A stretch of 64,000 nucleotides of DNA from a virus: positions 1 through 64,000 of the IMG/VR virus record IMGVR_UViG_3300035703_000041; one strand, written 5' to 3'. Of the stretch, positions 22,241 to 50,539 are shown piece by piece. Position numbers and translations under genes: made by a program. How positions within the stretch are numbered: position 1 is the first letter of the stretch; each line of letters opens with the position of its first letter. Below the pieces are notes generated by a model. The model saw only the letters and a program-made list of their open reading frames with translations, was not told the DNA's origin and did no database searches.

Positions 22241-22591
22241 ATGTGGCCATTTAAGAAAAAAATTGAAGTAGCTGAAGAAAAAGTTAAAGAAGAATCTGAA
22301 ACCATTACTATCTATGCAAATGATGATGGTATGCGCCGTGCAGAAGTTGCTATGCGTATGGCCGGGTTTGCGATTAATACCACAATGTATAATCAGCTTC
22401 CTTGGATTGCCAAGGCATTTGATGAATACAAAAAACTAGATTATGCAGCTGGTGCTAATTCACGTAAAAAGAAAAAACCAAAGAACACCTACTGCCCTGG
22501 ATGTAAGAGATATCTAGATGAGATTAAAAAAGATGGTTGCGGATCACAACGTTGTCCACCTCTTACAGCAGGACCTTCACCTAACGATTAA
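22241..22591 (+). CDS. Zinc-ribbon phage protein
   Basis: A 116-residue protein. The first part has acidic/basic helices; residues 75-81 are a KKKKP cluster, and C85-x2-C88...C100-x4-C105 (CPGCKRYLD, GCGSQRCPP) form a zinc ribbon. A basic stretch next to a zinc ribbon suggests nucleic-acid binding. It ends converging with the minus-strand gene, overlapping its stop by 4 bases. Confidence 0.55.
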   Translation: MWPFKKKIEVAEEKVKEESETITIYANDDGMRRAEVAMRMAGFAINTTMYNQLPWIAKAFDEYKKLDYAAGANSRKKKKPKNTYCPGCKRYLDEIKKDGCGSQRCPPLTAGPSPND

Positions 22592-23196
22592 TTGCTGTTG
22601 GCAATAAACGCAGGCACCCATTCCAATACTTCTGTGTGCTTTGTTAGAAAATGAAACCCTAGCCCTGCTCCAAAATCTTCTATTCTAAAATAAAACTTTG
22701 ATGCACTTGGATCTATAACATTAAGTATCTCAAACAAATGAGCATCTGACGTTATCTCATCTTCCTCCATTTTAGTTGAAGATGATATGATTATTGGATG
22801 CTTATGAATTCCAAGAATTGCCATAGCTGTTAATTTTTTATTACCTTTGTAGACGACATACTTTTCTTTAAAAAAGTTTAGACATATTGGTGATCTAACA
22901 GGGTTGTTTGGTAATTCTGATATTAAGTATTCAACTGCTGCAACCGTTCGTCGTTTAGTATAATCGCTTGATTGAATAATTTCTTGATAAGAATTATTGT
23001 ATGAGCTTGCTAATGATGTAGGATCTACTTTCAAAAGTTCAAAAGGGTTACAAGACTTAAAGTAAAGTTTGTAACCTTGAGTATTGAAGTAGGGAATAAC
23101 TCCGTCAATAAGCTTGTTAGTTTCAGACTGGTTATTCTCTACTTCGCCAATAAACTTTCCTATATCAAGTAAAATAACTGGATTATTCGTCACCAT
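22588..23196 (-). CDS. Unknown protein downstream of phoH
   Basis: A 202-residue protein, third gene of the minus operon, overlapping the end of phoH by 14 bases. A segment YVVYKGNKKLTAMAILG (around residues 112-128) vaguely recalls the G-x-x-R-x-x-A turn of ParB/sulfiredoxin-like folds, but the rest does not support a firm match. Its tight coupling to phoH suggests related function. Confidence 0.55.
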   Translation of the reverse strand: MVTNNPVILLDIGKFIGEVENNQSETNKLIDGVIPYFNTQGYKLYFKSCNPFELLKVDPTSLASSYNNSYQEIIQSSDYTKRRTVAAVEYLISELPNNPVRSPICLNFFKEKYVVYKGNKKLTAMAILGIHKHPIIISSSTKMEEDEITSDAHLFEILNVIDPSASKFYFRIEDFGAGLGFHFLTKHTEVLEWVPAFIANSN

Positions 23197-23929
23197 AAAT
23201 TTTTAATACTTCTGCTACTGCTGGGTGCCTTTCTATATCTTTATAACCAAATGCAGTCCATCCAATAAATTTACTTTCGCCAAAGCTTTGTAACAAACGG
23301 TCAAAGTCAATTAGACCATTGTCTTCGCCTTTGCGATCTGCCTGCATAACGTCACCTGTAACCACCATGCGTGAACCTTCGCCTAATCGAGTAAGTAACA
23401 TTTTCATCTGGCCCGGTGTAGCGTTTTGCATTTCATCAGCAATTATATAACTGTCTTTGAAAGTGCGTCCACGCATAAATGCCAGTGGGCTTATTTCTAA
23501 TATGCCTTCTTCGAGCATCATTTGTGTATCTTTTGGAGTATAATGTTCGTGCAATACATCAAATATTGGTCGTGTCCATGGTTCCATCTTTTGATTAAGA
23601 TCACCAGGTAAGAATCCATGTTTTTCACCATCAACTCCAACTGCTGGACGAGTTACAATAATTTTCTTTATATCACCTTCTTTGAGTGCTTTAACGGCTG
23701 CTAATACTGCTAACATTGTTTTACCAGTACCAGCAGGACCTGTTGCAAATACTATGCTTAAGTCTGGACTTAATAAGTTATAAATGTAATCTTCTTGTCT
23801 TCTATTTCGCGGAATTAATTCTATGCGCTTATTATGTTTTTTATATTCATTAAAGTTTATAGTGTTATTTGATTGTTTAGTTTCATTGTTTTTAAACTCA
23901 TTCCATGAGCGTTTTGTTTTTCTAGACAA
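23183..23929 (-). CDS. phoH: PhoH-like ATPase
   Basis: A 248-residue P-loop ATPase. Walker A ATGPAGTGKTML is at residues 62-73, the PhoH signature TRPAVGVDGEKHGFLPGD follows near 100-117, and Walker B SYIIADEMQNATPGQ with TGDVMQAD completes it. PhoH is a common marine phage gene; the family has ATPase and RNA-helicase-like features and its role in infection is unresolved. The start is TTG with GGGAGC 9 bases upstream. It is in one operon with a methyltransferase upstream. Confidence 0.9.
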   Translation of the reverse strand: MSRKTKRSWNEFKNNETKQSNNTINFNEYKKHNKRIELIPRNRRQEDYIYNLLSPDLSIVFATGPAGTGKTMLAVLAAVKALKEGDIKKIIVTRPAVGVDGEKHGFLPGDLNQKMEPWTRPIFDVLHEHYTPKDTQMMLEEGILEISPLAFMRGRTFKDSYIIADEMQNATPGQMKMLLTRLGEGSRMVVTGDVMQADRKGEDNGLIDFDRLLQSFGESKFIGWTAFGYKDIERHPAVAEVLKIYGDE

Positions 23930-23951
23930 GTAAATTTGCTCCCATAAATGA

Positions 23952-23980
23952 AGGGCAGCCCTACTAGGGCTAATTGCCCT
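23952..23980. promoter_or_regulatory. Nested hairpin upstream of phoH
   Basis: AGGGCA...TGCCCT encloses an inner hairpin GCCCT-ACT-AGGGC. It lies between the methyltransferase stop and the phoH start on the minus-strand transcript and lacks a T-run, so it looks like an mRNA structure or processing site rather than a terminator. Confidence 0.45.
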
Positions 23981-24045
23981 CCAAAAGTATTTACGGTGTT
24001 TTACAAAACGATTGCTTCAAATGCTACTTTTATAATACTAGCATT

Positions 24046-24777
24046 TTACTTTTCAAAAACAAAGTACAAGCGATTTCCGTTATCTTTTTTAAGTGTAATT
24101 AACTTTACATTGTGATCTTTAGCAAGACGATAAACGCTATCAAAGTCGTAAGGATAAATTTCAATATAAGAACCATTTTTGTGCGTTTCTCCTGGATTTG
24201 CTCGCACATAGACGCGACCACCAGGCGCAGTCAATTCAAATACTTTCTTAAATTTTGCACTCACATCTTCATAACTACCAAAGTTAATACTACCTAAAAC
24301 AAGTACAGCATCATATGTATTAGGTTCTACATTGTAATCGAGAATATCCACCATAAAGTCTGCACTGTTATTGTACTTGTCAATGCCAACTAGGTTTGGA
24401 ATACGTGGTTTAAATTGATTGTAACCACATCCAACATCTAACACTGCTTTAGGATTTTCTTTTAAAACTGTATCAACTAATCCCCACCCGGTGTATTGAT
24501 ATTGATCAGTCTTTGGTTGCCAGATACCTTGTCCCCAAAAACGTTCGCTATACTTCTCATCAATGTTATCTACTAGATTGCGTATTGTTCCACTAAAGTT
24601 TATATCATTTAATCCAAATTCATCTGCACACGCAATTTGAAACTTCTCAAAACGAGCAGGTGTCCAAGGAAGATCGTTTATAAATGTATACTCATGAAAG
24701 GTTAAAGAATTGTATTTTGGTAATTTAAAGCTGTCTTGCAATTTTTCGCTTACGTACCTAAAAATTTTTTTATTCAC
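24046..24777 (-). CDS. SAM-dependent methyltransferase
   Basis: A 243-residue class I methyltransferase. AVLDVGCGYNQFKPR (residues about 113-127) is motif I, NLVGIDKYN motif II, YDAVLVLGSINFG motif IV and APGGRVYVRANPG motif VI. The N-terminal ~100 residues may recognise substrate. The start is GTG 24777 with an AAGGAAA site, downstream of a minus-strand late promoter. The substrate is unknown. Confidence 0.75.
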   Translation of the reverse strand: MNKKIFRYVSEKLQDSFKLPKYNSLTFHEYTFINDLPWTPARFEKFQIACADEFGLNDINFSGTIRNLVDNIDEKYSERFWGQGIWQPKTDQYQYTGWGLVDTVLKENPKAVLDVGCGYNQFKPRIPNLVGIDKYNNSADFMVDILDYNVEPNTYDAVLVLGSINFGSYEDVSAKFKKVFELTAPGGRVYVRANPGETHKNGSYIEIYPYDFDSVYRLAKDHNVKLITLKKDNGNRLYFVFEK

Positions 24778-24793
24778 TAGAAATTTCCTTTAT

Positions 24794-24822
24794 TTGTTAA
24801 AAATCTATTTATAGTATATAAT
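24794..24822 (+). promoter_or_regulatory. Sigma-70-like promoter before sulfotransferase/symporter cluster
   Basis: TTGTTA-N17-TATAAT, 42 bases before the ATG at 24864. It overlaps the minus-strand late promoter, so the two directions share one control region. Confidence 0.5.
24806..24813 (-). promoter_or_regulatory. Late promoter TATAAATA (minus)
   Basis: A perfect T4 late box on the minus strand, 28 bases before the GTG of the methyltransferase gene; it would drive methyltransferase-phoH-22588. Confidence 0.75.
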
Positions 24823-24863
24823 TTTTTATTAATATAAGTAAATTTATTAAAGAAAGCAAAAAA

Positions 24864-25598
24864 ATGACACAGTTAATATGTTTAGCGTACCAACCTGGAT
24901 CTTACGGAAGTTTTACAAGTTGGGTCGTAGATCGCTTTAGTGCAGAACATAAAAAGTATGAAGCAGTAGCAGATGATCCACTATTGCCAGATGGCAGTGG
25001 TCACAAGTATGTAACTTACTGCAAGATTCAAAACAATGACAACTTTATTGCAATGATGGATCATGCAAAGTCAAAGCAAAAACCATGGGGCTATAACATC
25101 TATGCTGGATGGCCTGTTGGGGTGCGTGAAGACATAAACGTTTGCATGATGAAAGCAATTGGCAATCTTAAAGACAACGACAAAATGATCTTAATTGAAT
25201 GTACAAACATGGAGGAACATTTCATTCGTTATCTACGTAATGAGCCAACTATGGATCAAGCACGTTGGTATGGTATGTTAGAGGTGACCGACGAAGAGGA
25301 TTTGTACGTTCGTCTCAAGGTAGACGTGGAAGCAAGACAACTTGCACCTAATTATTACAATAAGAACTTACTACGCATTAACATGCAAGACATTAACTTT
25401 GCTGAGCCATATGTTTTGTTTGATAAAATCACAAATTTTCTTGCGTGGGATATTTGCGACAGAGAACTTTTTGGTGAAATCTTTAATCGCAGACAAAAAC
25501 TTCAGGTGCCATACTATGAGCAGTTGAAAAGAGTAATGACTGGTGATGTTCGCACACCAGCAGAACGTGTAGTTTACAGATACATTAAAGGAGAATAA
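24864..25598 (+). CDS. P-loop / sulfotransferase-like protein A
   Basis: A 244-residue protein. It opens with a strand and phosphate-binding-type loop, ICLAYQPGSYGSFTSWVVDR (residues 4-23), resembling the 5'-PSB loop by which sulfotransferases bind PAPS. A strand MILIECTN near 108 could be the second half of the fold. I do not see the full 3'-phosphate-binding signature, so the family is provisional. It ends one base before the symporter gene and is clearly co-transcribed with it. Confidence 0.5.
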   Translation: MTQLICLAYQPGSYGSFTSWVVDRFSAEHKKYEAVADDPLLPDGSGHKYVTYCKIQNNDNFIAMMDHAKSKQKPWGYNIYAGWPVGVREDINVCMMKAIGNLKDNDKMILIECTNMEEHFIRYLRNEPTMDQARWYGMLEVTDEEDLYVRLKVDVEARQLAPNYYNKNLLRINMQDINFAEPYVLFDKITNFLAWDICDRELFGEIFNRRQKLQVPYYEQLKRVMTGDVRTPAERVVYRYIKGE

Positions 25599-25599
25599 T

Positions 25600-27063
25600 A
25601 TGGATTTCACAACTCTATTCCCGTTGTTTAGTCAATCAACGGGATGGGCAATTGTTGGTCTTTACGGACTAGTAGTTTTAGCATTAACTACATTTTACGT
25701 TAAGGGCTATGCAGATAATAAAACAAGCTTCCTTGTTGCACGCCGTGAGATTGGTGGTGTAGCAGGATCAATGAGTATTGCAGCAGCGTGGGCATGGGCA
25801 CCCGCACTGTTTATTTCTGCCCAGATGGCATATCAAAACGGTATTGCAGGGTTGTTTTGGTTTACCATCGGTAACTTTTTAACACTCATTCTCTTTGGAT
25901 GGTTTGTCCCCAAGATACGAGAACGAATGCCTGAAGGATTTACGCTTGCTGGCTACGTCAAAGAAAAGTTTAGCAACCGTGTACAAAACATCTTCTTGCT
26001 AGAACTTTGGATGCTTGCAAGCTGTGCATTTGCTATTAACGCACTTGCCGGATCAAAAGCAGTCGAGACAATTACTGGTCTTAACTACCACGTAACTAGC
26101 CTTGTACTAGCAGGTATTGCACTTGTTTACGCATTGCGCGGCGGACTTAAGGCATCAGTTGTAACTGAGATCTTCAAAATTGTTGTGCTATGGGCAGGTA
26201 TTATCCTTGTTATTCCTTGGGCTTGGAGTGCAGCAGGTGGCAGCTTAACACTTGCAAATGGCCTAGGCGGTATTACCGGTAATGGCGCTAGCTTAATTAA
26301 CGAGTTTGCGCTTGGTGTATTCATGGCCGTAGGTATGAGTACAGCACTAGGACACTTGGGTGCACCATGGGGTGACAACGGGTTCTATCAACGTGCATTT
26401 GCTATTAAGCAAAATGCAATTAGAAAGGCATTTATTGGTGGTGCGTTTGTATTCGTATTTGTTCCGCTAATGATTGGTTCACTTGGTTTCCTTGCAGCAG
26501 GCATGGGCTTACAGATTCCTAAGGAACTTGTAGGCATGACAACTGTTATTACAATTGGTAGCGTACTACCAAGCTGGACAGTGTTAGTACTTGTATTCAT
26601 GTTGCTTGCAGGTCTAGTTGCAGTTCTTGACAGTCAACTTAACAGTGCTGCAAGTCTTGTAGGACATGACATTAAGAACAAGTTTAGCAGTGATACTTCT
26701 GAGACTGCAAACATTCGCTGGTCACGCGCTGGTATGTTTGCGTTAGCTGCAATGGCACTTAGTATTGCAAATTGGCCTGGCATGACTCTACTAACAATCT
26801 TCTTGTTCTTTGGTGTTATGAGAGCAACTGTTTGGTGGCCAATGATGCTACATCTATGGAAACCAAACTTAATTACTGAACGTGGTATGTTCTGGGGTAT
26901 CGTAATCGCATTCGTGCTTGGGTTCCCAACATTCGTTTACGGTCAACAATTTGGCGGCGGTGCAAATCTAACTATGATTGGTACACTTGTAGCAATCTTT
27001 GGTTCAGGCGCACTTGCTTACCTTATCAGCAAGTTGGATAATAAGAAGTTAGCACATGCCTAA
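25600..27063 (+). CDS. Sodium:solute symporter (SSS family)
   Basis: A 487-residue polytopic membrane protein with about 12-13 predicted membrane segments. The SSS signature features are visible: SFLVARREIGGVAGSMSIAA near the start (substrate/Na+ site), GFTLAGYVKEKF, YALRGGLKASVVTEIFK and the later LAGLVAVLDSQLNSAASLVGHD. The family imports sugars, amino acids, urea or organic acids with Na+. Full length is unusual for a phage. It has an AAGGAG site, follows gene 24864 by one base and overlaps the next gene by 8 bases. The substrate is unknown. Confidence 0.88.
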   Translation: MDFTTLFPLFSQSTGWAIVGLYGLVVLALTTFYVKGYADNKTSFLVARREIGGVAGSMSIAAAWAWAPALFISAQMAYQNGIAGLFWFTIGNFLTLILFGWFVPKIRERMPEGFTLAGYVKEKFSNRVQNIFLLELWMLASCAFAINALAGSKAVETITGLNYHVTSLVLAGIALVYALRGGLKASVVTEIFKIVVLWAGIILVIPWAWSAAGGSLTLANGLGGITGNGASLINEFALGVFMAVGMSTALGHLGAPWGDNGFYQRAFAIKQNAIRKAFIGGAFVFVFVPLMIGSLGFLAAGMGLQIPKELVGMTTVITIGSVLPSWTVLVLVFMLLAGLVAVLDSQLNSAASLVGHDIKNKFSSDTSETANIRWSRAGMFALAAMALSIANWPGMTLLTIFLFFGVMRATVWWPMMLHLWKPNLITERGMFWGIVIAFVLGFPTFVYGQQFGGGANLTMIGTLVAIFGSGALAYLISKLDNKKLAHA

Positions 27064-27682
27064 CAAATATATATTCGTTGCCGGCGCACCGGGCTCCAAA
27101 TGGAGCTCGGTCGTCAAAAACATTTATTACAGTCCTAGCATTGATCGTAGCGACTACAGCGATGATAGAACTTATTATCACAGTGCGTGGGGTAAACCAG
27201 AGTTAATGCATTTAGGTGCATACTACGATCCAGGCATGGAGTTTGGCAAAAAGTTTATGCGACTTCCGTTAATGGAAACTAAAGACGCAGAACAAGAATT
27301 TAATCGACCATTTAATGGCAAAGGTTCGCGTATAGTTAAGAGCCATGTGTTTTGTCACTACTTAGATTATCTTAAACACACTTGGCTAGATTCACCAATT
27401 GTATTAGTACATAGACCAAATGATGCATGTCTAGGTTGGTGGGTACGTTGTGGACAGTTTGACATTACGTATCCTAACTATCAATACTACAGCAATCTAC
27501 AAATGATGGCTATGCATATTGACCAACAAAACGCAGACATGTTAAAGTATTGCGTTGAAAATGATGTTGATTTTGATGTTGAAGACAATTACGATTTATG
27601 CGATCGTCTTGGTATTGAACGACCATCTATCGAATACAAACAAAACTATGCACAATGCGATATAAGGGTAGCAATAGTATGA
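27056..27682 (+). CDS. P-loop / sulfotransferase-like protein B
   Basis: A 208-residue protein. IFVAGAPGSKWSSVVKNIYY (residues 5-24) is a P-loop or PSB-type loop, and SPIVLVHRPNDACLGWWV near 117-134 resembles the sulfotransferase 3'-phosphate site (strand, then R-x-P, then a Trp-rich helix). It overlaps the symporter gene by 8 bases, so translation is coupled. Sulfation of a glycan or metabolite is inference. Confidence 0.55.
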   Translation: MPNKYIFVAGAPGSKWSSVVKNIYYSPSIDRSDYSDDRTYYHSAWGKPELMHLGAYYDPGMEFGKKFMRLPLMETKDAEQEFNRPFNGKGSRIVKSHVFCHYLDYLKHTWLDSPIVLVHRPNDACLGWWVRCGQFDITYPNYQYYSNLQMMAMHIDQQNADMLKYCVENDVDFDVEDNYDLCDRLGIERPSIEYKQNYAQCDIRVAIV

Positions 27683-28305
27683 AAATGATTATACTATTTG
27701 GTCCTCAAGGATCTGGTAACCACTTGTTTGGTAAAATCTTTAGTATGCATCCAGCAGTGCATGGATGGAAAGATTCTTTAAAACCTGATGGGTATTTTAT
27801 TCCACACTATAAAGAACCCTTTAACTGGTATTGGAATAATATAGATAAGATCGACATTGATATAATGGGCGGTAAGGATTATGCTGTAACAAGTATTAGC
27901 GCGCCTTATATTGAAAACTGGTTACCTAAAATTCCACCTGTACATGATTTTATGAAAGCAGTAGAGAATCTTGGCATTACTGTACAGCCTGTTGTTATTT
28001 CAAGAGATCAAAACATTCTTACACATCAGCAAACACGAGTACGAGGCGGACCAACGTGGGGCTGCGTTACACAATTAATACAGCACATGATTACTCCACC
28101 ATTTTTTGTTAACCAAGAAGCACTTTATTTGTACCGTAGACATTATATCAGAAGTTTACAGCATTGGTTAGATTTCCCGTTGGCATGGGATGATCCACAA
28201 GTTGATGAAATTTTAAAACAAGATGCAAATGAAAAATATGTTCATGCCGCTGATAGTTGGTGGCTGGATGAGCACTTAAAAAACATTCTAACTCCCCCAA
28301 ACTAA
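27679..28305 (+). CDS. P-loop / sulfotransferase-like protein C
   Basis: A 208-residue protein starting ATG 27679, which overlaps the previous stop (ATGA). IILFGPQGSGNHLFGKIFSM (residues 4-23) is the phosphate-binding loop, very like sulfotransferases (P-x-G-S-x-x-x-L). TVQPVVISRDQNILTHQQ near 106 may be the cofactor-binding Arg/Ser site. Third in the series of such proteins around the symporter. Confidence 0.55.
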   Translation: MKMIILFGPQGSGNHLFGKIFSMHPAVHGWKDSLKPDGYFIPHYKEPFNWYWNNIDKIDIDIMGGKDYAVTSISAPYIENWLPKIPPVHDFMKAVENLGITVQPVVISRDQNILTHQQTRVRGGPTWGCVTQLIQHMITPPFFVNQEALYLYRRHYIRSLQHWLDFPLAWDDPQVDEILKQDANEKYVHAADSWWLDEHLKNILTPPN

Positions 28306-28316
28306 TTTGACTTTTT

Positions 28317-28324
28317 AATAAATA
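28317..28324 (+). promoter_or_regulatory. Late promoter AATAAATA
   Basis: A late box with a 5-base gap to the next ATG, putting the A of ATG exactly at the predicted +1; no ribosome site is present. Confidence 0.7.
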
Positions 28325-28329
28325 CTACT

Positions 28330-28923
28330 ATGGATATTAAAGACGCTATAAAAAATACCAAAACTATCTATATGAGTAATAGTAGTTTAAATGTATTACT
28401 TGATTTTGAGCGAGTTATAGATGAGCTCGATCTATATGTGTTTGATAATTGGGAAAAAGGCGAATTAGTTGAAGGCCCAGTTATTGAAAAATATTGGGTT
28501 AGATGTAAATTTATGTGGCCACGCAAAATGATGCCAGATCCAAATGGTGCTGAAAGATTGCTTCCATATGGATGTAAAGTAACTTATGAAAAAACTAACA
28601 TACAAATACCTACTAAAGTCAAAGAACCAGATGATTTTAGACCTGATGGTAGTCGCAAAGGCAAGTTAATTGAAGTTCCAGTTTGGTTAGTTGATATTAA
28701 AATGCCTAAAGAATTAATTGCAGATATTGAACAGGGTAGCTTAGAAATTGCTGGTGAAGATATGGATCTTGAAGATATCCAAAACGCTTACCAGCAGGGC
28801 ATTGATCAACAAGCCAATGTTCAAAAAGAAGATGAATCTAATTTTGCTCCAGAAGCTGGAGCAGAACTAGGTATGGGTGCTCCAGAACAAGCAATTCCAG
28901 GAGGACTACCAGGTGTCGCTTAA
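28330..28923 (+). CDS. Late protein, unknown, probably virion-related
   Basis: A 197-residue protein. Residues 20-130 form a conserved-looking globular region (LDLYVFDNWEKGELVEGP, VRCKFMWPRKMMPDP, PVWLVDIKMPKEL); the C-terminus is acidic then Gly/Pro/Ala-rich. It is transcribed from a late promoter with a leaderless start and lies upstream of holin-like genes. I recognise the outline from marine T4-like phages but know no function. Confidence 0.6.
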   Translation: MDIKDAIKNTKTIYMSNSSLNVLLDFERVIDELDLYVFDNWEKGELVEGPVIEKYWVRCKFMWPRKMMPDPNGAERLLPYGCKVTYEKTNIQIPTKVKEPDDFRPDGSRKGKLIEVPVWLVDIKMPKELIADIEQGSLEIAGEDMDLEDIQNAYQQGIDQQANVQKEDESNFAPEAGAELGMGAPEQAIPGGLPGVA

Positions 28924-29446
28924 AAAATTGGAACTTAAAGATAGTATTTGGGATACAATACACGTTGACGAATACAAAGCTAAAATGGGTGATGACGCAG
29001 ACGTGATTGTTCTTAGCTTTAAGTCTAAGTATAAAGATCAAGCATGGGATCTAGTTAACTTTTTGGAAAAAGGGTATGAATGGATCCTTGATGCAGATGT
29101 TAGTGCTGGCGAATTAGAAGATGGCGGATACTTGGTTTTTATTGAAGCACTACGCAGACCAACTATACCTAATAAAATACTAAAACTACTCGATGATATG
29201 GCTAATTTAACTGGATTAAAACCAGAAGAATATCGCTTACAATACCATAAAGAAATAAGTTACGTTCCGTTAACTATGGAAAATATAACAAATAAGGTTC
29301 CATTAGAACCACGTAAGTATAAAAAAATGCATAAGAGTCAAGATGATGTTGAACTTGAAAATATGCAAATGGCAGCTGGGTTAGCACCTAAGACTGAAGA
29401 AACAACAGATCCTGAAATTAAGCACTTTGTTAATTTAAGCAAGTAG
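28913..29446 (+). CDS. Late protein, unknown, paired with 28330
   Basis: A 177-residue protein. GTG 28913 is preferred because GGAGG lies 8 bases upstream; it overlaps the previous gene. The start MSLKKLELKDSIWDTIHVDEY is followed by a central domain (IVLSFKSKYKDQAWDLVNFLEKGYEWILDADVSAGE would be the core, residues about 33-68) and a disordered tail. No function recognised. Confidence 0.55.
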   Translation: MSLKKLELKDSIWDTIHVDEYKAKMGDDADVIVLSFKSKYKDQAWDLVNFLEKGYEWILDADVSAGELEDGGYLVFIEALRRPTIPNKILKLLDDMANLTGLKPEEYRLQYHKEISYVPLTMENITNKVPLEPRKYKKMHKSQDDVELENMQMAAGLAPKTEETTDPEIKHFVNLSK

Positions 29447-29447
29447 C

Positions 29448-29455
29448 TATAAATA
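29448..29455 (+). promoter_or_regulatory. Late promoter TATAAATA
   Basis: A perfect T4 late box 29 bases before the next ATG, with an AAAGGAG ribosome site in between. Confidence 0.8.
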
Positions 29456-29484
29456 ATAATATAATAAAATAAAGGAGCCAACAA

Positions 29485-29802
29485 ATGGCTACTAGGAGAT
29501 CTGAAACTTGGATCCAGTATTACTGGCGCCCAGCAATGGCATGGCAATATTTTGTTGTTTGCATATTTGACTTTTTCCTTGCACCAATATTAACTGGGGT
29601 ATTTCACTATTTAAATGGTAGTGCATATGAACCATGGCAACCACTTACTTTAACTAACGGTGGATTATATCATTTAGCTATGGGAACAATAGTTGGCGTT
29701 GCTGCTTGGAGTAGAACTAAAGAAAAAATACAAAAAATGTTAATGGATGGTACTACTTTTGAGTCACAAGAAGAAACAACAACACAAACAATAAAAAAGT
29801 AA
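29485..29802 (+). CDS. Holin-like membrane protein 1
   Basis: A 105-residue protein with two hydrophobic segments (about 20-41, WQYFVVCIFDFFLAPILTG; about 57-75, GGLYHLAMGTIVGVAAW) and a charged C-terminal tail. The size, late promoter and adjacency to another small membrane protein fit holin/antiholin pairs. No motif proves this, and I see no lysis endolysin adjacent. Confidence 0.5.
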   Translation: MATRRSETWIQYYWRPAMAWQYFVVCIFDFFLAPILTGVFHYLNGSAYEPWQPLTLTNGGLYHLAMGTIVGVAAWSRTKEKIQKMLMDGTTFESQEETTTQTIKK

Positions 29803-29815
29803 TTAGGGGAAATAA

Positions 29816-30391
29816 ATGATTACATTAATCTCTACGATATTTGGTGTATTATCAGGATTATTGCCAAATGTCATTAAAATATTTGAAAAAAGGTTAGATT
29901 ATAAGCATGAAATCGAACTCACTAAAATCAAAATGGATGCAGCTCGAGAAGGTCTCATACTACAGCTCCAAATTGAAGGCATTAAAGCGGATACTGCGGA
30001 GGGAGAATCTATTCGCAAGCATGATAGCGATATTGAGTATACTGGCTTTTGGGGAGCATTACGAGCTTCTATCAGGCCAACCATTACCTACGCTTTCTTC
30101 GCTTTATTCGTTGGCATTAAAATAGCAGCGTTTATGGTATTAGTAGATCGCGGTGCTTCACCAACTGAACTATTAACATTAGTTTGGGATAGCGAAACAA
30201 TGGCAATATTCTCAGCTATTATTGGTTTCTGGTTTGGTAGCCGCGCTATTGAAAAGTTTGGAAACTTCTATACTGGCACAACATTCAGTTTAGCTTCAAA
30301 ACAAGGTGTTAGCGCAGTTACAATGAATGCAAAACCTTTGTCTGTACCTGTTAAAAAAGCAGCACCAAAGAAGCGAACTAAAAGAAATTAG
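29816..30391 (+). CDS. Holin-like membrane protein 2 (3TM type)
   Basis: A 191-residue protein: an N-terminal hydrophobic segment, an amphipathic helix (KIMDAAREGL region), then two membrane segments (YAFFALFVGIKIAAFMV and MAIFSAIIGFWFGSRAIEK), with a basic C-terminus (KKAAPKKRTKRN). The block GALRASIRPTIT-YAFFALFVG...ETMAIFSAIIGFWFGSRA resembles 3-TM holins of gene-transfer-agent/phage type. Late operon with 29485. Confidence 0.6.
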   Translation: MITLISTIFGVLSGLLPNVIKIFEKRLDYKHEIELTKIKMDAAREGLILQLQIEGIKADTAEGESIRKHDSDIEYTGFWGALRASIRPTITYAFFALFVGIKIAAFMVLVDRGASPTELLTLVWDSETMAIFSAIIGFWFGSRAIEKFGNFYTGTTFSLASKQGVSAVTMNAKPLSVPVKKAAPKKRTKRN

Positions 30392-30403
30392 TTTTTACTT
30401 GCA

Positions 30404-30446
30404 GGATCACGCGCGATAGCATAAATTATTATATCATGCGTGATCC
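30404..30446 (+). promoter_or_regulatory. Start-codon hairpin enclosing a late-type box (dnaJ)
   Basis: A perfect 9-bp inverted repeat GGATCACGC/GCGTGATCC whose right arm overlaps the dnaJ ATG (30436). A CATAAATT box lies in the loop (30420-30427). Read-through transcripts would hide the start; transcripts begun inside the loop would not. Confidence 0.6.
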
Positions 30447-31305
30447 TTATCAAACACTTGGCGTACAAAGAACTGCTACCCCTGAAGAAATTAAAGCAGC
30501 TTATCGTAAATTAGCAAAACAGTATCACCCTGATCTTGGTGGCGATCCTGAAAAGTTTAAAGAACTAAACGAAGCTAACGATATACTAAGCGATCCTAAT
30601 AAAAAAGCTCAGTATGATATGGGCGGGTTTAACTATCAAAACTTTAATCCTGGCGCACAAGCATATAGAAGTGGCACCCACTTCCACTTTGAGGACATAT
30701 TCTCAAACGAAGACTTTATGAATATCTTTGCTCAAGCAGCAGGATTTCCAGGTGGACGTCGCAGACCAAAAAATAGTAATATCAGGATTCGAATGAATGT
30801 TACACTTGAATCTATATTACAAGAACAAATCAAAACAATTGATATCAACACATCCACAGGCAGCAAACAAGTTGAAATCAAAATTCCTGCAGGCATTCAC
30901 GATGGAGCAATCATAACATATAGAGGCATGGGACAAAACACTTATTCAGATCAACCAGCTGGGGATCTAATGGTTGAAGTTACAATAGCACCACACGAAC
31001 GATTTGTAAGAATGAATGAAGATCTTCATTCAAACATCACGCTTGATTGTTTCAAGGCTACACTTGGTACTGTAATGGAATTTACAACTATTAGAAATAA
31101 AAGAGTTAAAGTAACTATACCAGCTGGTAGTCAAAATGGCACTGTGCTACGTTTGCCAAGTGAAGGATTGCCAAGTATGAATAGAAACAAATATGTTGGC
31201 AGTCAGTACTTAAAAATTAATGTTTCAATTCCAAACAATTTGACTAATGAACAAATTGATTTAGTAAAAAAGATCGTTGACATACAAAACGGTTTAAATA
31301 CTTAA
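30436..31305 (+). CDS. dnaJ: DnaJ/CbpA-like co-chaperone
   Basis: A 289-residue protein. The J domain is at residues 1-65 with the essential HPD at 31-33 (QYHPDLGG); a Gly/Phe/Asn linker follows, then two C-terminal substrate-binding beta domains (IDINTSTGSKQVEIKIPAGI and GTVMEFTTIRNKRVKVTIPAG). No zinc finger is present, as in CbpA/DnaJ class II. It would stimulate host DnaK. ClpA follows with its own promoter. No ribosome site; the start lies in a hairpin. Confidence 0.9.
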   Translation: MRDPYQTLGVQRTATPEEIKAAYRKLAKQYHPDLGGDPEKFKELNEANDILSDPNKKAQYDMGGFNYQNFNPGAQAYRSGTHFHFEDIFSNEDFMNIFAQAAGFPGGRRRPKNSNIRIRMNVTLESILQEQIKTIDINTSTGSKQVEIKIPAGIHDGAIITYRGMGQNTYSDQPAGDLMVEVTIAPHERFVRMNEDLHSNITLDCFKATLGTVMEFTTIRNKRVKVTIPAGSQNGTVLRLPSEGLPSMNRNKYVGSQYLKINVSIPNNLTNEQIDLVKKIVDIQNGLNT

Positions 31306-31321
31306 TAGTACAATATATCGC

Positions 31322-31349
31322 TTGACACTGTGTAAATCTGTACTATATT
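31322..31349 (+). promoter_or_regulatory. Early promoter (TTGACA-N16-TATATT)
   Basis: A consensus early promoter with 16-base spacer and leader ACATAACAAC, driving the ClpA-like gene; it lies within the late-gene region. Confidence 0.78.
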
Positions 31350-31379
31350 ATACATAACAACTTTAATGGAGAAAAACAG

Positions 31380-33650
31380 TTGGCACTTCAAAATAATCCA
31401 GAAATTGATCGGATCGTAGCACATGCTATTGATATTGCAAAAGCCGCTAGCCATAAACTAGTTACAACGGAACATTTGGCACTAGCATTAATTGTCAACG
31501 AAGGCTTTAGAAATGTCATTGAAGATGCCGGTGTTGATCAAAATTCGCTAGTTGATGAGATTTCTAAACACCTAGCACAACAAACTCACCTTATGGGCGA
31601 TGCAGTAGAACAGCCAAATAAAACACATGCACTTGAACGTGTATTCAATCGAGCATTTACACAAGTTCTGTTTAGCAATCGTCAAGTAATGCAACCAGTT
31701 GACTTGTATCTAAGTCTTAGCAATGAGACTGATAGTTGGGCTGCATACTTCTTTACCAAATATGGTATGGAAAAGTCTAAGATTGTAACTTCGCATAATA
31801 ACAAAAATGCGCGTGGCGGTAATTTAGATTCTTCTGGTGCGGATGCAATTCTAAAAGAGTATTGTACTGATCTAAATGAACTTGCTGAGAATAACGAAAT
31901 CGATCCAGTTATTGGTCGCGAAAACGAACTTACTGAGATCGCACAGATCCTTGCACGTCGTAATAAAAACAACGTGCTTATGGTTGGTGATCCAGGTGTA
32001 GGCAAGACTGCAATTGCAGAAGGGCTTGCACTTAACATTGTTAATAAAAATGTTCCAAAGTTCTTAAAAGACTGGCGTGTCTATAACTTGGACATTGGTA
32101 CATTACTTGCTGGATCTAAATTCCGTGGTGAGTTTGAAGAAAAGCTACGTGAAGTAATTAACGCTCTAAGTAAGAAGGGTAAGTCTATTCTATTCGTAGA
32201 TGAAGCGCACCAAATGCGCGGAGCCGGTTCAGGCGGACACAGCGATGTTGACTTCTCTAACATGATTAAGCCAGCTCTTGCAAAAGGTAAGATCAAAGTT
32301 ATTGCCTCAACTACGTGGGAAGAATACAGCACAAGCTTTGAAAAGGATCGCGCACTTATGCGTCGTTTCCATAGGCTTACTGTTGATGAACCTACTCCTG
32401 TACATGCTAAGGAAATCCTAAAAGGATTACGTCCTTACTTTGAGAAGTTCCACACTGCTACAATTACAGATGATGCTATTGAAGCAGCAGTTGATCTTAG
32501 TGTTCGTTATCAAAGCGATAAGAAGCTACCAGACAAGGCACTTGACTTAATCGACAGTGCTTGTGCTCGTGAGAAAGTAAAAGATCACAAGAATTTTGCT
32601 GTTACACGTGGCATGATTGTTGATGAGATTAGTACTGCAACAAAGATTCCAATTAGCCAAATTGATGCTAAGAGTGATGAAGTTGCTGTTGATCTTGAAG
32701 GTGCAATTAAGTCTAAGCTGTACGGACAAGATGCAGCAGTAGACAATGTACTTGAAAAGGTATATGTTGCTAAAGCTGGACTTAAGAGCATCAACAAGCC
32801 AATGGGTGTGTTCCTCTTCTTAGGACCAACTGGTACAGGTAAGACTGAGCTTGCTAAGTTGCTTGGTGAAAACATGGGCATGAAGCTACTACGCTATGAC
32901 ATGGGCGAATACCAAGAGAAGCATAGCGTTGCAAGGCTTATTGGTGCACCTCCAGGATATGTAGGATATGATGACGGTAACTTAGGTGGTGGTTTGCTAA
33001 TTAGCGAAATTACTAAAAACCCAAACGCAATTATCCTCTTTGACGAAGTGGAAAAGGCACATCCTGATGTTATGACAGCACTGCTTGCTCTCATGGACGA
33101 GGGTATGGTAACCGGATCAAACGGTAAGAAAGCTGATGCACGTAATTGTCTTGTTATTATGACAAGCAATCTGGGTGCTCAGGAGAGCGAGAAGAACAGC
33201 ATCGGTTTTGGATCTCCTGAAAAGAAGGGAGAGGACGATAAGGCGGTGCAGCAGTACTTCCGCCCAGAATTCCGCAACCGTTTAGATGGTATTGTTAAGT
33301 TTGGTAAGCTTGATCAAATGAGCTTGCGTAAAATCGTAGCTAAGTTCATTGTTGAGATTAATGAACTGCTTGGTGATCGTGGTATTAAACTACGTCTTGA
33401 TGAACCAGTAGTTGATTTAATTATTGAACAGGGCTATGATGCTAAGATGGGTGCGCGTCCTATTAGTCGTAAGATTAATGAACTCGTAAAAGTTCCACTT
33501 AGCCGCAAAATTCTCTTTGATAAGATCCCTGCAGGTGTTACACTTGTAGCGAAGCTTACTGATGGTAAAATTGAATTTGTACAACATGACGACAACAAAG
33601 TGGTAGGAGATGATGGAATTATCCGCGTTGATGGCTCGGTTACAATCTAA
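31380..33650 (+). CDS. clpA: ClpA-like AAA+ unfoldase
   Basis: A 756-residue Clp ATPase: N-domain (residues 1-140), first AAA+ module with Walker A GDPGVGKT at 203-210 and second module with GPTGTGKT around K488. The ClpP-docking tripeptide is present as I608-G609-F610 in the same place as the IGL of E. coli ClpA, so it could deliver substrates to host ClpP. Length equals E. coli ClpA (758). The start is TTG with a GGAG site; no in-frame ATG is nearby. It may redirect host proteolysis. Confidence 0.92.
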   Translation: MALQNNPEIDRIVAHAIDIAKAASHKLVTTEHLALALIVNEGFRNVIEDAGVDQNSLVDEISKHLAQQTHLMGDAVEQPNKTHALERVFNRAFTQVLFSNRQVMQPVDLYLSLSNETDSWAAYFFTKYGMEKSKIVTSHNNKNARGGNLDSSGADAILKEYCTDLNELAENNEIDPVIGRENELTEIAQILARRNKNNVLMVGDPGVGKTAIAEGLALNIVNKNVPKFLKDWRVYNLDIGTLLAGSKFRGEFEEKLREVINALSKKGKSILFVDEAHQMRGAGSGGHSDVDFSNMIKPALAKGKIKVIASTTWEEYSTSFEKDRALMRRFHRLTVDEPTPVHAKEILKGLRPYFEKFHTATITDDAIEAAVDLSVRYQSDKKLPDKALDLIDSACAREKVKDHKNFAVTRGMIVDEISTATKIPISQIDAKSDEVAVDLEGAIKSKLYGQDAAVDNVLEKVYVAKAGLKSINKPMGVFLFLGPTGTGKTELAKLLGENMGMKLLRYDMGEYQEKHSVARLIGAPPGYVGYDDGNLGGGLLISEITKNPNAIILFDEVEKAHPDVMTALLALMDEGMVTGSNGKKADARNCLVIMTSNLGAQESEKNSIGFGSPEKKGEDDKAVQQYFRPEFRNRLDGIVKFGKLDQMSLRKIVAKFIVEINELLGDRGIKLRLDEPVVDLIIEQGYDAKMGARPISRKINELVKVPLSRKILFDKIPAGVTLVAKLTDGKIEFVQHDDNKVVGDDGIIRVDGSVTI

Positions 33651-48934: not shown

Positions 48935-50539
48935 ATGTTAATTAAAGATTTGCTACAAGGATCTACGCATGTTAATGAGGATGCTATATCAGATCTTGCC
49001 AGTAAATTAAAGAGTACTAAAGCAACAAGTTATGATAATATCGATGCAATTATGCAAAAGATAGCAAAAGACAATAATATAACAGCTAAAGAATTACACG
49101 ACATTTGGGTAAAAAAGTACGGTGAAAAACCAGATGATTGGATTAAAGATCAACTTAATGAAGCATTAACCGCTAAAGATACAGTTGAACGTTGGATTGC
49201 TGTTTTTAAAAGTAGTAAGCATCCAAAGTTTGCAGGTAAAACTCCTGAGCAGCGTGAGAAGATGGCAAGAGCTGCACAATATCGTGCAGTTCATAATAAA
49301 AAAATTAATGAAGCAAAAGTAACACTATATACTGATCCATCATACTATGGTGCTGAAGTTGCAGACAATGCTGGCGAAGGTATACCCGTACAAGAAATAC
49401 CATTAGACAATTTAGTTGGGTTTGAACCTGACGTTAAAATGCAGGACAAAAAGAGTGCAGCCAATATGTCTAAAATGGTTGACCTATTGAAAGCAGGCAA
49501 GGGCAAAGAACTACCACCAATACTAGTACGCAAGTATAAAAATGGTTATCAAGTATTAGATGGACATCATAGATTCCATGCTTACAAGAAAGCTGGAATA
49601 AAAACTATTCCAGCTAAACTTGTTCCTGATGAAGATATCAAAGTTGTTGATAAAATTGAAGAAGGTCCAGTTTGGGATAAAGTAAAGAATACTGCACTTG
49701 CTGGAACAATGGCAGGTGCGCTAGGGTATGGTGCGCTAACAGGGCAGTTACGTGACGAACCAAGGCAAGTGCCAGTTGACAAACCTCCTTTAGAAATTAC
49801 TATACCAGGTGGTCAAGCAGAACCTGAAGTTAAAAAAGAACCAGAAAAACTATCACCAAGTACCGCTACAAACGCAAACAAAGAAATGGAAAAACTCGTG
49901 CTAACTGTTGCTTATCGCTCTGGGATAAGAGGTCAAGAGTTGGCACAATTCATGGGACAAGTTGCTCATGAGACACTAGGATTTCAACGTTTAGTAGAAG
50001 TTGGTAGCGCAGAATACTTTAATAGATATGATCCAGAACATAGTCCTAAAAAAGCAAAGATACTTGGTAATGTTAATCCTGGTGACGGCATACGTTATAA
50101 AGGTCGCGGGTTTATACAAATAACTGGGCGTGACAACTATAAGCGTGCTGGGAAAGCACTAGGGATTGATTTAGAAAATAACCCAAAGTGGGCAAGCAGT
50201 CCTAAAATTGCTGCTAAGATCGCTGTATGGTATTGGAAAAGTAGAGTAAAACCAGCAGTGGATGACTATACTGATACTATTGGTGTTACTTCAAAAATTA
50301 ATCCTAGTATGAATGGTCTTGGTGATAGAGACATGAACTTTCATCATTATTTAGAAAAGCTTAATTTAAATGAAAATTTTGCTGATGGAAAGAAACCAGG
50401 ACGCAAGGGATTAGCCAAAAGAGTTGGTGTTAATTGTAAACAAAGCGTGACAAAGTTAAGAAAAATTGCTAGTAATAGTAGTGGTGAAAAACAGCGTATG
50501 GCACATTGGTGTGCAAATATGAAAGGCGGCAAAAAATGA
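48935..50539 (+). CDS. ParB-like / GH19 lysozyme virion protein
   Basis: A 534-residue protein. N-terminus MLIKDLLQ-G resembles the head-targeting start (Gln instead of Glu). Residues ~150-225 are a ParB/sulfiredoxin-like domain (LPPILVRKYKNGYQVLDGHHRFHAYKKAG: catalytic-type G-H-H-R). Residues ~325-475 match GH19 chitinase/lysozymes: VAHETLGF with a Glu near 346, and GRGFIQITGRDNYKRAG near 390. The C-terminus has a KPGRKGLAKRVG module seen in other phage virion proteins. A role as a peptidoglycan-cutting enzyme during DNA entry is inferred. Confidence 0.72.
   Translation: MLIKDLLQGSTHVNEDAISDLASKLKSTKATSYDNIDAIMQKIAKDNNITAKELHDIWVKKYGEKPDDWIKDQLNEALTAKDTVERWIAVFKSSKHPKFAGKTPEQREKMARAAQYRAVHNKKINEAKVTLYTDPSYYGAEVADNAGEGIPVQEIPLDNLVGFEPDVKMQDKKSAANMSKMVDLLKAGKGKELPPILVRKYKNGYQVLDGHHRFHAYKKAGIKTIPAKLVPDEDIKVVDKIEEGPVWDKVKNTALAGTMAGALGYGALTGQLRDEPRQVPVDKPPLEITIPGGQAEPEVKKEPEKLSPSTATNANKEMEKLVLTVAYRSGIRGQELAQFMGQVAHETLGFQRLVEVGSAEYFNRYDPEHSPKKAKILGNVNPGDGIRYKGRGFIQITGRDNYKRAGKALGIDLENNPKWASSPKIAAKIAVWYWKSRVKPAVDDYTDTIGVTSKINPSMNGLGDRDMNFHHYLEKLNLNENFADGKKPGRKGLAKRVGVNCKQSVTKLRKIASNSSGEKQRMAHWCANMKGGKK

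Follow-up and report, generated by a model that had tools for sequence, protein, structure and literature searches.

The first 64,000 bases (hereafter, the window) of the 95,224-base virus record IMGVR_UViG_3300035703_000041, which represents an uncultured T4-like phage, carry a transporter gene of the sodium:solute symporter (SSS) family flanked by genes for three proteins with P-loop-like motifs (Table 1). T4-type features of the record include an RNA ligase/tail-fibre attachment protein (phrog_562) and a sigma factor match. These four plus-strand genes had been described in a sequence-only reading of the DNA, and all are present as reported, with a gap of 1 base before the SSS gene, an overlap of 8 bases after it, and the loops QPGSYGS, GAPGSKW and GPQGSGN in the products of the open reading frames (ORFs) that start at 24864, 27056 and 27679, respectively. 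The start at 27679 is preferred to an alternative at 27655 because it forms an ATGA stop/start overlap with the 27056 gene. A divergent minus-strand gene, overlooked in that reading, is a fifth member of what we call the cassette; the genes other than the SSS gene are referred to below by family (A2 to A5).

Table 1. Genes and promoter candidates at the cassette locus (window coordinates).
Feature	Position	Strand	Basis or remark
S-adenosylmethionine (SAM)-dependent methyltransferase-like protein, family A5	24046..24777	-	divergent from operon; motif VLDVGCGYNxFK / GID
Weak sigma-70-like promoter candidate (TTGTTA-17-TATAAT) before plus-strand operon	24794..24822	+	consensus scan, 10/12
T4-type late-promoter core TATAAATA	24806..24813	-	36 nt upstream of 24777(-) start
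P-loop-like protein, YQPGSYGS loop, family A4	24864..25598	+	no Pfam or PDB match by sequence
SSS-family (PF00474) transporter, DUR3-like branch, 487 aa	25600..27063	+	Pfam, PHROG, alignment, tree
Predicted sulfotransferase-fold protein, GAPGSKWS loop, family A3	27056..27682	+	AlphaFold2 model, structural matches
Predicted sulfotransferase-fold protein, GPQGSGNH loop, family A2; most constant partner of the SSS gene	27679..28305	+	AlphaFold2 model, structural matches

The carrier is complete, as had been claimed: it matches PF00474 (E=4e-23; 82.4 bits against a cut-off of 22.8) over profile positions 1-405 of 406, as well as phrog_20720 (E=5e-89), a phage family that bears no function label. 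Comparison with an 84%-identical homologue gives a nonsynonymous divergence (dN) of 0.116 and a synonymous divergence (dS) of about 1.6, hence a dN/dS of about 0.07 with dS near saturation; between two relatives, dN is 0.054 and dS 0.69. The gene is intact and under strong purifying selection, and no decay is seen.

By profile, the best solved relatives of the carrier are the DUR3/UreA urea-H+ symporters (PDB 9j7c, 9x5u and 9vim; full length, E=6e-30), whose long C-terminal part it lacks. The urea-site residues of UreA (W82, W84, Y106, N279, T282, D286 and Y437; PMC9783183) were mapped onto it through a HMMER alignment. While W82, W84 and D286 are kept (as W64, W66 and D259), other UreA residues are changed (Y106 to F88, A110 to N92, N279 to H252, T282 to A255 (A/G255), Y289 to F262, and Y437 to F401). 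Urea import as such was rejected in view of the replacement of the selectivity residues Y106, N279, T282 and Y437, and the cassette carriers probably transport something else; assignment as a Na+/glucose, proline or pantothenate carrier was also rejected, the equivalog models scoring far below cut-off. The canonical Na2 site is a Ser/Thr pair on transmembrane helix 8 (S392/S393 in hSGLT1; S342/S343 in SiaT, PMC5931594). The sequence alignment places A341/V342 at these positions in the window carrier, and all 55 full-length cassette carriers have A or S at 341 and V or I at 342. Because these hydroxyl positions are lost in cassette-linked transporters, the sodium coupling assumed in the sequence-only reading is doubtful: the cassette carriers probably neither use Na2 nor couple to classical Na+ at that site, and the name 'sodium symporter' may be a misnomer. 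Coupling to H+, as in DUR3, is our guess by analogy.

Nine positions (W64, W66, F88, N92, H252, D259, F262, D344 and F401) are invariant in the same 55 carriers. The binding-site signature N92/H252/D259 that they contain is replaced, in related non-cassette phage and cellular carriers, by sequences with L252 and Q260: both residues occur in all six carriers from phages or prophages with genes for ParB and for 3'-phosphoadenosine 5'-phosphosulfate (PAPS) reductase domains, which have S-T at 341-342 (6/6), and in six Patescibacteria carriers (S-T in 5/6). In the tree, the cassette carriers form a clade on a branch with 100/100 support that holds 35 of the 48 rows, including three carriers linked to PP-loop genes and two other phage carriers. 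Viral carriers are jointly separated from those of Patescibacteria (support 100/98); recent capture from a host was rejected, since the nearest non-viral rows are these Patescibacteria carriers outside the viral branch. The genes beside the Patescibacteria SSS genes (a TrmB-like regulator, by eye) give no clue to the substrate. Relatives at 38% identity occur in prophage-like Firmicutes loci. A pattern scan of genome contigs returned only 3 loci because the patterns are virus-typical, and a plasmid search gave a best match of 27%.

AlphaFold2 models of the 27056 (A3) and 27679 (A2) proteins reached mean predicted local distance difference test (pLDDT) scores of 95.5 and 94.7, with 48 and 75 aligned relatives, respectively, and a structural aligner ranked sulfotransferases first for both. 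The best matches of 27056 are TPST1/2 with bound 3'-phosphoadenosine 5'-phosphate (PAP) (TPST1-PAP: Z 11.3, root-mean-square deviation (rmsd) 3.5 over 166 residues; best kinase, 8.8). For 27679 they are the sulfotransferase domain of olefin synthase (Z 11.5, rmsd 3.0, 164 residues), followed by CurM, TPST and 3-OST, with the best kinase-type protein at Z 9.4. Top Foldseek matches in the PDB agree for both proteins, at modest E-values, and those of 27679 in BFVD are annotated sulfotransferases. On these models, 27056 and 27679 are sulfotransferase-fold proteins. The 27679 loop, GSGNH, lacks the lysine of the kinase pattern GxGK[ST], and R109, like several other positions, is the same in all 75 A2 members. 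At the level of sequence, 29 of 48 A3 members weakly match Sulfotransfer_3 (best E=7e-5) and none matches a kinase family; in the whole-record search, 0/9 such A3 matches reach 27 bits, all being below the curated cut-off. The 27056 protein itself has no Pfam match, and its weak PHROG 'QueC' match (E=0.07) was dismissed as noise. Among the 75 A2 members there is no sequence match to a sulfotransferase family, nor was a PDB sulfotransferase found by profile.

The suggestion that all three P-loop proteins are sulfotransferase-like thus holds, by structure, for 27056 (whose family also matches weakly by sequence) and 27679, whereas 24864 shows no such relation by sequence and its fold is unassigned. 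A single A4 member of 11 matches Sulfotransfer_3, weakly (E=0.08); hhalign detected no relation of A4 to A2 or A3, and homology among the three was rejected at a probability below 10% for each pair. All 16 non-redundant A4 relatives lie in SSS cassettes. The A5 protein matches phrog_4752 (tRNA methyltransferase; E=3e-4), with Pfam methyltransferase domains below cut-off, and VLDVGCGYN is conserved in the family alignment.

Scans of IMG/VR yielded 66 viral loci with carrier relatives at 38-84% identity (67 with the window), in which A2-A5 relatives were sought within 5 kb using profiles built from the first ten loci. A2 was found in 56 of the 67 loci, A5 in 54, A3 in 19 and A4 in 16, counts that represent related contigs, some of them incomplete, rather than independent events. 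After thinning at 90% carrier identity, A2 remained in 30/39 loci and A5 in 28/39; in 20 of the 39, A2 and the SSS gene share a strand and are no more than 200 bp apart, and in 5 A2 is on the opposite strand. Gene orders vary (A5-A4-SSS-A2; A4-SSS-A3-A2; A2-A5 divergent from oxygenase-A4-SSS-A3), and since A2 also occurs on the opposite strand in some loci, the set persists through rearrangement. As the same families recur beside the SSS gene in 56/67 viral loci, the arrangement is not due to chance. Neither of the two results named as refuting in the sequence-only reading was observed. In the reverse direction, the best 80 A2 loci contain A5 in 70 cases, A3 in 56 and the SSS gene in 38; the carrier is therefore an addition to a broader set of tailoring genes.

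Relatives of the cassette carry further genes. An adenosine 5'-phosphosulfate (APS)-kinase-like gene and a nucleotidyltransferase gene (PF01467), sometimes fused, occur in the same gene run in 26/80 A2 loci and 6/66 SSS loci; in relatives such as L005, where the APS-kinase-like gene matches PF01583 at E=1e-14, they lie directly between the SSS gene and A3. The APS-kinase-like protein scores 55 bits against a Pfam cut-off of 21.1 and 53 against an NCBIfam cut-off of 138.7, its N-terminal half alone aligning. A PAPS synthase in these relatives is only possible, because the nucleotidyltransferase is no less similar to nicotinamide mononucleotide (NMN) adenylyltransferases than to ATP sulfurylase. 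PAPS production by the window's phage was rejected, its 95-kb record containing neither gene. Another family, present in 61/80 A2 loci and lacking any Pfam match, shows 95-98% conservation of H138xD140, H205 and R215, residues that form the pattern of 2-oxoglutarate (2OG)/Fe(II) oxygenases. In one close relative, an O-carbamoyltransferase-type gene (Carbam_trans_N/C; L003:2712-4241) lies upstream of the cassette, which fits a tailoring island.

Related SSS genes also have other neighbors. In Firmicutes phages or prophages (L136, L140, L141, L150, L151 and L160), they adjoin PAPS-reductase-domain and, by eye, ParB-like genes, with a class II glutamine amidotransferase nearby in L151. Elsewhere they directly adjoin PP-loop ATPase genes (L127:6821-8011, L132:5786-6427 and L134:6308-6958), L127 also having a class III aminotransferase. 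In both groups the SSS gene is again directly beside ATP-activating enzymes, in parallel to the cassette.

The sequence TATAAATA, which we take to be the core of T4 late promoters, occurs three times in the 64-kb window (vs. 8 expected), each copy preceding a gene start by 31-37 nt. In relatives it precedes the oxygenase gene, often the first gene of the run, in 10/57 cases (vs. 0.4 expected), as well as A2 in 5/101 and A5 in 5/84. The presence of T4-type late-promoter cores beside cassette genes suggests that the cassette is expressed late, at least in part. The score of the sigma-70-like candidate before the plus-strand operon is not above shuffled background.

Near the cassette (window 22588-33650), a PhoH-like ATPase and, by eye, DnaJ-like and ClpA/B-like proteins are encoded. 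Farther along the window, the product of ORF 48935-50539 is ParB-like in its middle part and endolysin-like in its C-terminal part. A tRNA gene with a CUA anticodon (ARAGORN: tRNA-Pyl), possibly an amber suppressor, lies at record positions 79806-79881 (L148:15806-15881), and TAG serves as the stop codon in only 9/125 long ORFs of the record.

We propose that these genes constitute a five-gene phage tailoring cassette, expressed at least partly late, that couples solute import to sulfation and/or methylation, a reading on which our confidence is evenly balanced. The SSS/DUR3-like carrier would import a small solute, and the two sulfotransferase-fold proteins, together with the methyltransferase-like A5 protein, would then sulfate and/or methylate either the solute itself or a target made with it, most probably part of the host surface or of the virion. 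We infer that the carrier feeds the enzymes, that the target is of this kind and that the function belongs to the late phase; from the modelled folds, we also infer that A2 and A3 would use PAPS as cofactor. A wider version, which we consider rather doubtful, holds that this is a widespread phage module in which a dedicated importer whose ion and substrate sites are altered is combined with sulfation and methylation enzymes, such that an environmental compound would decorate virions or the host surface late in infection, and to which, equally doubtfully, some phages would add hydroxylation and PAPS synthesis.

Several observations weigh against the proposal. As single proteins, A2 and A3 fall below every Pfam or PDB sequence threshold, and the 3'-phosphate-binding motif has another residue (Q in A2 and W in A3) in place of its usual Ser. 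Some of the linkage may be due to common descent of the phages. The affinity of the nucleotidyltransferase to NMN adenylyltransferases and the absence of APS-kinase-like, nucleotidyltransferase and oxygenase-like genes from the window's record count in the same direction, as does the finding of an APS kinase in only 6/50 SSS-bearing records; given this rarity, viral PAPS synthesis is no general feature, and PAPS would have to come from the host.

Three other explanations were weighed. The SSS gene might be a stand-alone gene for uptake of a nitrogen, carbon or sulfur source, with the tailoring genes sharing its insertion hotspot as unrelated cargo; in many loci, A2, A3 and A5 are indeed found together where no SSS gene was detected (as seen among the best 80 A2 loci), 11 loci have the SSS gene without A2, and a phage SSS gene of another kind has been reported (Aeromonas phage 44RR2; PMC6163359). 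We nevertheless judge this explanation unlikely, as A2 touches the SSS gene in 20/39 non-redundant loci and the substrate-site signature of cassette carriers is absent from their non-cassette relatives, although the signature also follows the tree. A2 and A3 could instead be other P-loop enzymes, such as kinases whose substrates are metabolites or modified DNA bases, in a pathway that hypermodifies DNA or nucleosides using an imported precursor. P-loop kinases also match both models (at the Z scores given above), and the PP-loop ATPase or PAPS-reductase-domain/ParB genes beside related phage SSS genes are reminiscent of nucleic-acid modification. However, all top structural matches of A2 and A3 are sulfotransferases, the A2 loop departs from the kinase pattern, and A3 weakly hits Sulfotransfer_3 and no kinase family, so that hypermodification appears quite improbable.

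In the remaining explanation, which we regard as very improbable, the carrier would import sulfate or another sulfur oxyanion to feed sulfate activation, forming a line from sulfur import to sulfation. The APS-kinase-like and nucleotidyltransferase genes that immediately follow the SSS gene in relatives, the PAPS-reductase-domain genes adjoining related Firmicutes-phage SSS genes, and H252, which replaces N279 of the urea carrier and could bind an anion, would all be consistent with such a line. We know of no SSS carrier that transports sulfate, though; APS-kinase-like genes are as rare as noted above, and the double-Trp site is that of the urea carrier (PMC9783183).

As a rule, phage auxiliary genes are individual metabolic genes acquired from the host. 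In the present case, many uncultured phages share a link between a transporter clade that is typical of viruses and a constant set of tailoring enzymes. If carrier and enzymes act in one line, these phages would possess their own import-and-modify pathway, and phage sulfation would become directly testable. To our knowledge, sulfation has hardly been studied in phage biology; a linked importer and methyltransferase provide a handle on the targets of phage sulfotransferases.

In tblastn searches of 50,697 GenBank phage records, A2 had no match, the carrier only two distant ones, and A3 and A5 matched only a marine single-cell virus. A keyword search of the open literature, with most subscription journals outside its scope, found no description of a phage cassette joining an SSS gene to sulfotransferases, in line with the sequence-only reading, which knew of none.

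Compared with known systems, A2 and A3 have in common with tyrosylprotein (TPST1/2), polyketide-type (the domains of CurM and olefin synthase) and heparan (3-OST) sulfotransferases the fold, the position of the phosphosulfate-type loop and a conserved Arg after the following strand; they differ in length (about 208 vs. 250-300 amino acids), in the non-conserved Ser of the 3'-phosphate motif and, for A2, in lacking a sequence-level match, with identities of 10-16%. Like A2 and A3, sulfotransferases of marine and giant viruses are virus-encoded, including those in OM43-phage genomes, whose function is unclear (PMC10580990), and others in BFVD, but no linked transporter has been described there. 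The 'sodium/glucose cotransporter' of Aeromonas phage 44RR2, reported to be close to bacterial Na/glucose carriers (PMC6163359), is, as here, an SSS gene in a T4-like phage, but was not found by tblastn with the window carrier. The individual parts of the cassette are of known kinds, while their combination and its spread are new.

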